Shown: piece by piece, positions 31,317 through 49,473 of the stretch
Position numbering within the stretch: the stretch's first letter is position 1
Layout of the letters: every line of letters starts with the position of its first letter
NCBI RefSeq assembly: GCF_003050865.1
Contig: NZ_QAOK01000014.1
Span: forward strand, 1 to 64,000
DNA from: Nitrosospira multiformis
GTDB taxonomy: Bacteria; Pseudomonadota; Gammaproteobacteria; Burkholderiales; Nitrosomonadaceae
Reading direction: 5' to 3'
DNA: 64,000 nt
Translations under genes and position numbers: made by a program
The notes under the pieces: generated by a model
What the model saw: only the letters and a program-made list of their open reading frames with translations
Told to the model about the DNA's origin: nothing
Database searches by the model: none

Positions 31317-31406
31317 TATCTGGCAGTCCTGCCGTCCTGGGGCCTTTGCCCGGTAGACCGATGACTTTGCGTCCCCCGCTTTCGCGAGGTTTGCCTTTTA
31401 CAGATT
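31317..31406 (-). ncRNA. Cyclic-di-GMP-I (GEMM) riboswitch aptamer
   Basis: The minus strand carries the GEMM-I core in order: GGCAAACC, a 6-bp stem closed by a GAAA tetraloop (CCTCGC-GAAA-GCGGGG), the invariant GGGACGCAAAG, then GGTCTACC, a GGGC/GCCC-type arm, and CAGGACGGCAGGACTGCCAG as the receptor side. The outer P1 helix forms between ATCTG (from 31401-31406) and CAGAT (31318-31322). Class I aptamers bind c-di-GMP at the three-way junction. It lies about 140 nt upstream of the subtilase start, with no gene between. I found no second copy in this window. Confidence 0.93.
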
Positions 31407-46458: not shown

Positions 46459-47637
46459 CTATTGAGTCAAACCCCTTGCGAGATCGGCCTTTATGTCTTT
46501 TACGGCCTCAAGTCCCACTGCAATGCGCAGCAAGCCCTCGGTAATGCCCGCTGCATCCCGGTTTTCCTGGCTGATCCGCCCATGCGTGGTGGTGGCAGGA
46601 TGGGTAAGGGTGCTCTTGGCATCCCCCAGGTTGGCGGTGATGGAAATCATGCGAACGGAATCCACCACCCTCCATGCCGCTTCTCTTCCATTCTTCAATT
46701 CGAATGAAACGATTCCACCTCCGGTTTTCTGCTGGCGGCTGGCAAGCTCGTACTGGGGATGCGATGGCAAGCCTGGATAATGGACTTTGGCTACGCCAGG
46801 TTGCGCTTCCAGCCAGCGCGCAATTTCCAGTGCATTTTCAGAATGCCTTTCCATCCGAAGGCTCAGGGTTTCCATGCCCTTCAGGATCACCCAGGCATTG
46901 AACGGACTCAGGCTCGGCCCGGCAGTGCGCAGAAAACCGAATATTCCCCCGTCCATCACGAGATCACGCTTGCCCAGCACCGCACCCCCCAACACCCGGC
47001 CCTGACCCTCAAGATATTTGGTCGCAGAGTGAATCACGAGGTCTGCTCCCAATTCCAGCGGACGTTGCAGGGCGGGAGAGCAGAAGCAATTGTCCACGGC
47101 GAGCCATGCACCTGCTTTTTTTGCTACAGCAGCCAGTGCGGCAATGTCGGAAATCTCGGTCAACGGATTGGAGGGTGTTTCCATGAACAGCAGCCTGGTG
47201 CTCGGTTTTACCGCTGCTTCCCAGGCAGAAACGTCCGTAGCGGAAACAAACGTCGTTTCGATGTTGAAGCGCTTGAGGATATTGTTGAACAAGCTGACGG
47301 TCGCACCGAACAGGCTGCGGGAAGCCACGATATGGTCCCCCGCGCGGAGGAGCCCCATGGTGCAGGCTAGAATGGCTGACATGCCGGAGGAGGTGGCGAC
47401 ACAGGCTTCCGCCCCCTCCAGAGCGGCCAGCCTTTCCTGAAAAGCGGTAACCGTGGGGTTGGTAAAGCGTGAATAGATATTACCCGGTTCCGCGTCGGAA
47501 AAGCGTGCTGCGGCCTGCGCTGCGCTATCGAAGACAAAACTCGAAGTAAGGAATAAAGCTTCCGAGTGTTCATTGAACTGGCTGCGATGTATGCCCGTAT
47601 GCAGCGCCAGTGTTTCCAGCTCGAAATCGTCAGACAT
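46459..47637 (-). CDS. metZ: O-succinylhomoserine sulfhydrylase
   Basis: A 392-residue PLP enzyme of the Cys/Met metabolism family, making homocysteine directly from O-succinylhomoserine and sulfide. The PLP lysine is in HSATKYLEGQGRVLGG. SSGMSAILA and METPSNPLTEI are family motifs. Start ATG 47637 (MSDDFELETLALHTG); an upstream in-frame start at 47664 would run into the hairpin leader. It follows purF, as in many betaproteobacteria and pseudomonads. Its leader holds an IS200/IS605-like hairpin element, so regulation through RNA structure is possible. Confidence 0.93.
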   Translation of the reverse strand: MSDDFELETLALHTGIHRSQFNEHSEALFLTSSFVFDSAAQAAARFSDAEPGNIYSRFTNPTVTAFQERLAALEGAEACVATSSGMSAILACTMGLLRAGDHIVASRSLFGATVSLFNNILKRFNIETTFVSATDVSAWEAAVKPSTRLLFMETPSNPLTEISDIAALAAVAKKAGAWLAVDNCFCSPALQRPLELGADLVIHSATKYLEGQGRVLGGAVLGKRDLVMDGGIFGFLRTAGPSLSPFNAWVILKGMETLSLRMERHSENALEIARWLEAQPGVAKVHYPGLPSHPQYELASRQQKTGGGIVSFELKNGREAAWRVVDSVRMISITANLGDAKSTLTHPATTTHGRISQENRDAAGITEGLLRIAVGLEAVKDIKADLARGLTQ

Positions 47638-47664
47638 GCCAGATATCTCCCTCAAATTCCCCAA

Positions 47665-47803
47665 CTAAACTACCACCTACTAGAAGTAGGTGGGTTAGCG
47701 CAGCTTGGGTGCAGACGACTAAAGTCGCCTATCCGCACCAAGCTAGCGCGCATGAGTCAACACATTTAAAGTCAAAGTCACCGTCTAAAGACGGTGGTTT
47801 TTA
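47665..47803 (-). mobile_element. Hairpin-rich IS200/IS605-like remnant (PATE/MITE) in the metZ leader
   Basis: Three nested inverted repeats occur within 140 bp. CACCGTCT-AA-AGACGGTG (47779-47796) is followed by T5 on the plus strand. An imperfect 14-bp stem at 47697-47749 has an inner CGACT-AA-AGTCG. CCACCTAC-TAGAA-GTAGGTGG lies at 47673-47693. On the minus strand the order is an end hairpin, a complex hairpin, then a second end hairpin, resembling the left and right ends of IS605/IS1341-type elements with tnpA/tnpB deleted. The right-end structure would include the omega-RNA scaffold of TnpB. There is no coding sequence inside. Classification is inference from hairpin style. Confidence 0.55.
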
Positions 47804-47821
47804 CCAAATTTATAGAAATAA

Positions 47822-47855
47822 AAAACCCGTTCAGCGTTCGCCAAAAACGGGTTTT
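47822..47855 (-). terminator. Intrinsic terminator downstream of purF
   Basis: Stem AAAACCCGT / ACGGGTTTT (9 bp) with a 16-nt loop, followed on the minus strand by a T6 run. It lies about 100 bp beyond the purF stop and before metZ, so metZ should have its own promoter or depend on readthrough. Confidence 0.82.
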
Positions 47856-47952: not shown

Positions 47953-49473
47953 TTAATTCGCCGTCACCAGGTTCAGGTCGAGTTGGGTGCTGGAACGTCT
48001 CTCCGTGAGAGGAGGACTACCACTGCGTTGCGCCTCCAGAACGGCCAGGTATTCCGGCGTTACATCCCCGGTAATATAGCGCCCGTCGAAACACGAAGTC
48101 TCATACTGAGAGATGAATGGATTGACGCGGCGTACATCTTTAATGAGAGAATCGAGCTCCTGATACACCAGATGATCGGCGCCAATCTCCCGGCATATTT
48201 CCTCGTCATCCCGCCCCGTGGCAATGAGTTCGTGACGCGTAGGCATATCGATGCCATAAACGTTGGGAAACCGCACGGGGGGTGCAGCAGAAGCAAAAAA
48301 CACCTTGTTCGCGCCGGCTTCCTTCGCCATCTGGACGATTTCACGGCTGGTAGTGCCGCGTACGATCGAATCATCGACCAGCAACACATTTTTTCCGCGA
48401 AACTCCACGCCCATGGCATTGAGCTTCTGGCGGACCGACTTGCGGCGCAGTTGCTGGCCCGGCATGATAAAAGTTCGACCGATGTAGCGGTTTTTTACGA
48501 AACCTTCACGAAAACTTATGCCCAGGCGGTTGGCAAGCTGCAAAGCACTGGGGCGACTGGAATCAGGAATCGGAATGACCACATCGATATCGAGATGACT
48601 CATCGTGGCTTTGACTTTATCGGCCAGACTCTCTCCCATGTTGAGCCGGGTTTCATAGACTGAAATTCCGTCTATGACTGAATCCGGCCGTGCGAGATAG
48701 ACATACTCGAAGATGCAGGGATTGTGCGAGGGGTTGGGCGCGCACTGCTTATTGTAAAAATTGCCGCTGTCATCAATAAAAATCGCCTCGCCAGGCTCAA
48801 CATCCCTCACCAGCTTGAATCCCAAGGTATCGAGCGCCACACTCTCGGACGCCACCAGATACTCCGTCCCATGCTCGGTTTCCGCGCACCCGAACACAAG
48901 GGGGCGAATACCATAAGGATCGCGGAACGCGAGCAATCCGTAACCTGCAATCATTGCTATGACGGCGTAGGCGCCTTTGCAACGCTCGTGCACACCGGAT
49001 ACGGCGGCAAAAATAGCGGCGGGATCGAGCTGGTGGTTCTTCGTGCTCCTCTGCAACTCGTGCGCCAGCACATTAAGGAGCACTTCCGAATCCGAATTGG
49101 TGTTGACGTGCCGCAAATCCTCGCGGAACAACTCATCTTTGAGCTGTGCGGAATTGGTCAGATTGCCGTTATGCCCGAGTACGATTCCGAATGGCGAGTT
49201 GACATAAAACGGCTGTGCTTCTGCAGGAGACTCGGCGGAACCGGCAGTGGGATAACGCACCTGGCCGATCCCCATGTTCCCGAGCAAGGCGCGCATATTC
49301 CGCGTGCGAAACACGTCGCGCACCAGGCCGCTGTTCTTGTGCATGTGGAAGGTATTCCCCTGGGCGGTAACAATTCCGGCCGCATCCTGCCCGCGATGCT
49401 GCAGCACCAGCAACCCGTCGTAGAGTAGCTGGTTTACGGGAGCATGCGAAACTAAACCCAGAATTCCACACAT
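47953..49473 (-). CDS. purF: Amidophosphoribosyltransferase
   Basis: A 506-residue PurF that makes phosphoribosylamine from PRPP and glutamine, the first step of purine synthesis. The catalytic Cys2 follows the initiator Met (MCGILGLVS), exposed after Met removal. The PRPP-binding motif is [14 protein letters not shown]. Start ATG 49473 is fixed by the Cys2 requirement. The gene belongs to the cvpA-purF pair conserved in proteobacteria. Confidence 0.97.

Follow-up and report, generated by a model that had tools for sequence, protein, structure and literature searches.

A gene-less element with IS200-type ends, probably a recent insertion, in front of metZ in Nitrosospira multiformis

The 64,000-nucleotide stretch of Nitrosospira multiformis DNA analysed here (the window) contains a tight cluster of hairpins immediately upstream of metZ, and the question is what such a cluster is doing in the spacer that separates this gene from purF. 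A sequence-only reading had seen a coding-free element with IS200/IS605-style ends, and had suggested that it might survive as a solo omega-RNA or as a domesticated metZ leader. The explanation favoured here, to which we assign a probability of about 0.93, is that the cluster is a gene-less miniature element with IS200-type ends, a recent arrival in the spacer, with the purF terminator on one side and the ribosome-binding site of metZ on the other. It would then be one of the palindrome-associated transposable elements (PATEs) known in Haloquadratum walsbyi and Halanaerobium (PMC3119063, PMC7290912).

The hairpin cluster and its setting

The inverted repeats are real: three hairpins lie within 124 bp at the element upstream of metZ (Table 1). 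Perfect hairpins (stem of at least 7, loop of 3-8) are sparse, with 33 in the whole 64-kb window, and only three pairs of neighbours start less than 150 bp apart, the pair in the element being one of these. The 147-nt stretch 47660-47806 folds better than 200 of 200 shuffled versions whether treated as DNA (z -6.50), as plus-strand RNA (z -6.44) or as minus-strand RNA (z -4.25). No tnpA or tnpB frame is present among the hairpins: the open reading frames of at least 80 amino acids listed there are the frame of metZ, with its start at a TTG further upstream, and one of 132 aa which crosses the element. The description as a coding-free element is thereby borne out.

Table 1. Features of the purF-metZ region (window coordinates)
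Feature	Positions	Strand	Basis
metZ, O-succinylhomoserine sulfhydrylase	46459..47637	minus	NCBIfam NF006003, 717 bits, cut-off 522
Non-autonomous IS200-type element (probable PATE), 153 bp	47664..47816	minus	six copies in assembly; empty-site borders
Right tip GTTTAGT, equal to tip of Nitrosomonas IS200-type element	47664..47670	minus	copy and end comparison
Right-end hairpin CCACCTACT-TCT-AGTAGGTGG, 9 pairs, loop 3	47673..47693	minus	hairpin search, folding
Internal stem, long and imperfect, in right-end half; tip CGAC-TTTA-GTCG	47698..47749	minus	folding, copy alignment
Left-end hairpin CACCGTC-TTTA-GACGGTG, 7 pairs, loop 4	47779..47796	minus	hairpin search, folding; likeness to own-genome IS200-type left end
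Target hexamer TTTATT, directly 5' of left end, retained in empty site	47817..47822	minus	empty-site and copy comparison
purF terminator-like hairpin and T tract; 10-bp arms 47822-47831 and 47846-47855	47822..47855	minus	hairpin search
purF, amidophosphoribosyltransferase, upstream of element	47953..49473	minus	TIGR01134, 520 bits, cut-off 350

The extent originally proposed, 47638-47803, does hold a hairpin element, while its borders needed correction: the element runs from 47664 to 47816, positions 47638-47663 being the native metZ ribosome-binding region, outside the element, and 47817-47822 the target. Read on the minus (metZ) strand, the left end is at 47816 and the right end at 47664. 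The right end faces metZ, as had been stated, lying 26 bp from the first base of the metZ ATG (47637), with the right-end hairpin 35 nt above that codon. On this strand the element starts TCTATAAATT and finishes AGTTTAGT, and terminal inverted repeats are absent, since the former does not match the inward reading of the latter, ACTAAACT.

A match to the purF-metZ spacer was obtained in 21 of the 22 other genomes of the genus (G002 gave none), and the element is missing from all 21 Nitrosospira spacers read. In 17 of these both flanks align, separated by 1 to 21 bases; in the remaining four the purF match begins further in, and the terminator adjoins the metZ start as in the others. The purF terminator-like hairpin itself is also found in relatives lacking the element. 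Because 21 of 21 relatives with a readable spacer are without it, the element is not a conserved metZ leader: the conservation in front of metZ that characterises a cis-regulatory leader was seen in 0 of 21.

Copies, borders and target

Searching the organism's own assembly (3.29 Mb in 85 contigs, E up to 10) with 193 bases of the region yielded 11 matches. Six are the element at 99-100%, the whole-genome search thus adding five copies to that at metZ, and the other five, of 14 to 26 bases, are at chance level. Over 153 bp five of the six copies are identical and one shows a single difference. The sequence-only reading had itself named two findings that would count against it, a lack of similar copies and an ordinary leader conserved across genera; instead, copies were found, and the spacer of relatives is without the element.

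For four of the six copies the occupied site could be set beside an empty one, those on contigs C20 and C32 lying near contig ends and outside the comparison. At all four sites, each with an empty counterpart in Nitrosospira relatives, the insertion is clean, 3' of TTTATT or TTCATT, and no target duplication is present. At metZ a relative (L064) has GGGTTTTTTATT followed by TGGGG, and our genome has the element between the two; here the target TTTATT is supplied by the T tract of the purF terminator-like hairpin. At the C41 site the relative reads TTTTATT then ATCC, and at the C37 site TTTCATT then ACCCC. Taking the six own copies together, the left flank is TTTATT in five and TTCATT in one. 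Like IS200/IS605 elements, the 153-bp element inserts directly 3' of a short, fixed target and does not duplicate it, with a qualification at the C4 site, where four relatives show a run of T (three of them TTTTTT) against TTTATT in our genome. Terminators were considered as a preferred target, an idea that was dropped with the metZ copy alone seen at one.

At two own copies (L003, about 301; L006, about 1505) the adjoining open reading frame stops at or just inside the element border, and its end may have been cut by the insertion. A further copy lies between cysD and cysN (L004, G000:C4, 1507-1659). Sulfur genes (metZ; cysD/cysN) adjoin two of the six own copies, which is probably chance.

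The predicted fold was examined across a set of 19 chosen copies, 17 of them distinct, which omits partial copies, further near-identical copies from our genome and from G052, and further copies from G082 and G075. In this set 90.4% of cells are paired, compared with 25.7-46.9% when the structure is slid along the alignment. Changes on both sides of a pair number 8 against 3.0 in shuffles, a measure that does not discriminate, since slid versions give 1 to 8.

Beyond our genome, DNA searches (own genome counted, some matches partial) placed relatives of the element in 23 of 150 related genomes, with hits also in 8 of the 399 genomes sampled from the order and in 5 of the 369 sampled from the class. 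Scanning named genomes for its pattern located eight stretches, in Nitrosomonas, Nitrosospira, Nitrosovibrio and a Nitrosomonadales bin. At least four copies are present in G052, a probable Nitrosomonas genome in two contigs. Plasmid and phage records gave no match to the element at E 1e-5, and the literature searches made brought up no description of the element.

Kinship with IS200-type and palindrome-associated elements

Elements of IS200 type that carry tnpA and have similar ends occur in our own genome as well as in related ones, which agrees with the style of ends first proposed. Our draft assembly contains five Y1_Tnp matches, two of them at the first bases of contigs, and no complete intact frame; the three tnpA copies with a readable start (L014, L015, L016) all have a stop at codon 5. 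The left-end hairpin resembles the corresponding end of a multi-copy IS200-type element of this genome (84.6% over 26 nt, E 0.004), for which the left flanks are TTAATT, TTAATT and ATCATT. Between the right ends of the two elements BLAST showed no match at E 0.05, and the likeness there, GGTGGTWGTTTAGT, was judged by eye. Outside the hairpin, the left-tip sequence differs between the 153-bp element and the IS200-type elements.

The closest correspondence of target and tip is with the IS200-type element of the Nitrosomonas genome G052, which has 31 Y1_Tnp matches, 12 of them copies of equal best score. TTTATT precedes the left end in 8 of 8 distinct copies (those with a left end found in the stretches read) and the right end is GTTTAGT, the same tip as that of the 153-bp element, these borders being set where the copies cease to be alike and not by empty sites. 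Among nine distinct tnpA copies read, two encode a TnpA of 150 aa, uninterrupted and with HVH; in another HVR replaces HVH, and six are shortened. The tnpA-only elements of G052 and of our genome have in common with the 153-bp element the core of the left-end hairpin and a second stem region before the right-end hairpin; they differ from it in the presence of tnpA, in the left tip and internal sequence, and in giving no full-length DNA match. In one place in G052 (G052:C1, L121, 2563779-2563936) a copy of the element abuts an IS200 copy head to tail, right end against left end, and the joined right tip is TTTATT, not TTTAGT.

A parent bearing tnpA or tnpB and having the same full ends was not encountered among 34 Y1_Tnp loci (5 own, 29 others) and 30 tnpB loci. 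Several candidates were inspected and rejected: G009 and G063 hold remnants of a left end, in G011 a right end precedes an unrelated frame resembling a transposase (a reading by eye), and G032 has a different gene-less element. G134, from another family of the order, was rejected since it holds a second family of gene-less elements, about 198 bp long (L047 about 600-799, L048, L049), with three copies 99.5-100% alike. The right half of this second element matches ours at 81% over 89 nt, whereas its left half is IS200-type, the left end being almost that of IS200-type elements. One member (L093) abuts a tnpA-bearing IS200-type element head to tail, right end against left end.

The element probably borrows an IS200-type transposase in trans. 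For a unit that holds no gene, but has hairpins and a left flank and right tip that are both fixed, an enzyme acting in trans is the likeliest mover. According to PMC6006769, TnpA of IS608 and ISDra2 binds hairpins close to the ends of the DNA in its single-stranded form, and the cleavage points, at left flank and right tip, are chosen by short guides that lie 5' of the hairpins. From these systems, as there described, we infer the route of the present element. Its end hairpins would fold when the strand that bears it becomes single-stranded, and a Y1 (HuH) TnpA from an IS200-type element would bind them, making one cut on the 3' side of the TTNATT at the left flank and another behind the GTTTAGT of the right tip. 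The element would then leave as a single-stranded circle, to be inserted 3' of another TTNATT without duplication of the target.

Each PATE feature examined (PMC3119063) is present in the 153-bp element. Like PATEs as portrayed in PMC3119063 and PMC7290912, it lacks inverted terminal repeats, has a palindrome near either end, leaves its target unduplicated and, at 153 bp, offers no room for a transposase gene; its ends are related to those of IS605-type transposons (the right-end likeness being judged by eye), its copies are homogeneous and its insertions strain-specific. The tnpA gene of autonomous IS200/IS605 elements is absent. Set against the PATEs of a haloarchaeon and of Halanaerobium, ours belongs to betaproteobacterial ammonia oxidisers and forms a sequence family of its own, is related to tnpA-only IS200-type elements, and has an extra internal stem in its right-end half. 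In Haloquadratum, according to PMC3119063, gene-less elements moved recently though the IS200 transposases at hand were broken, a puzzle which the 153-bp element repeats. A speculative extension, which we regard as improbable, is that the recent spread was driven by a since-lost transposase, or by a related IS200-type TnpA accepting foreign TTNATT ends, and that the insertions at metZ and cysD/cysN may tune sulfur assimilation. On that view, the genome in which the element spread of late would be one that shows no intact transposase to partner it.

Rival readings

Three other explanations deserve to be weighed against that of a recently inserted gene-less element. In the solo omega-RNA proposal, transcription of the right end would yield the scaffold of a guide RNA used by a trans-acting TnpB, the metZ leader serving as guide. 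The right end does point at metZ, several stable hairpins are possible in RNA, and at 4 of 30 tnpB loci there is sequence like the core of the left-end hairpin (21-23 nt, E 0.011-0.094), which makes a tnpB-bearing ancestor conceivable. The comparison drew on the 17 of 121 relatives that have tnpB (PF07282), 28 of their loci being used (G045, with 47 matches, contributing 3), together with two of our own. At none of these 30 loci does the right end find a match, so that the parental tnpB element once envisaged did not emerge; our draft assembly has just two PF07282 frames, one of 106 aa and one of 80 aa that contains a TGA, and in the nearest tnpA-bearing relatives with the same target tnpA is not followed by a tnpB before the right end. 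Nor did any Rfam family reach its gathering score, with the proviso that Rfam may not hold an omega-RNA family: at E up to 10 there were nine matches, all below that score, two of them to RAGATH families (14.6 against 92.6 bits and 11.3 against 41.8 bits). We consider an omega-RNA very unlikely indeed. Hardly better placed is a domesticated leader, in which the inserted element would now be retained as an attenuator or mRNA stabiliser of metZ. Its position 26 bp above the ATG, the terminator-like scores of two of its hairpins on the metZ strand and the other copy between the sulfur genes cysD and cysN count in favour of such a role. The 21 Nitrosospira spacers without the element tell against it, as do the copies at unrelated places: all 153 bp of the metZ copy recur unchanged in four of these, and adaptation to the site is for that reason not visible. 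No promoter-like site was found in the element region.

The remaining rival would have REP-like palindromes spread by TnpA-REP (RAYT) rather than by an IS200-type TnpA. The two enzymes are related and both act on hairpins, and in G009 a degenerate left-end copy adjoins a short frame resembling a Y1 transposase (read by eye and unscored). The unit, however, is a defined 153 bp with two different ends, above the 21-65 nt of REPs (for both points of comparison, PMC6006769), and it has its target and right tip in common with an IS200-type element; the REP reading, too, is given very little credence.

An odd hairpin cluster is in this way explained as a recent insertion with clean empty sites, and the gene-less element favoured above gives the ammonia oxidisers a defined IS200-type family with a known target. 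The case warns against naming such leaders riboswitches, attenuators or orphan guide RNAs.

Elsewhere in the window, Rfam recognises a c-di-GMP-I riboswitch at 31319-31405 on the minus strand (75 bits against a gathering score of 35) and a tRNA at 127-200, also on the minus strand.
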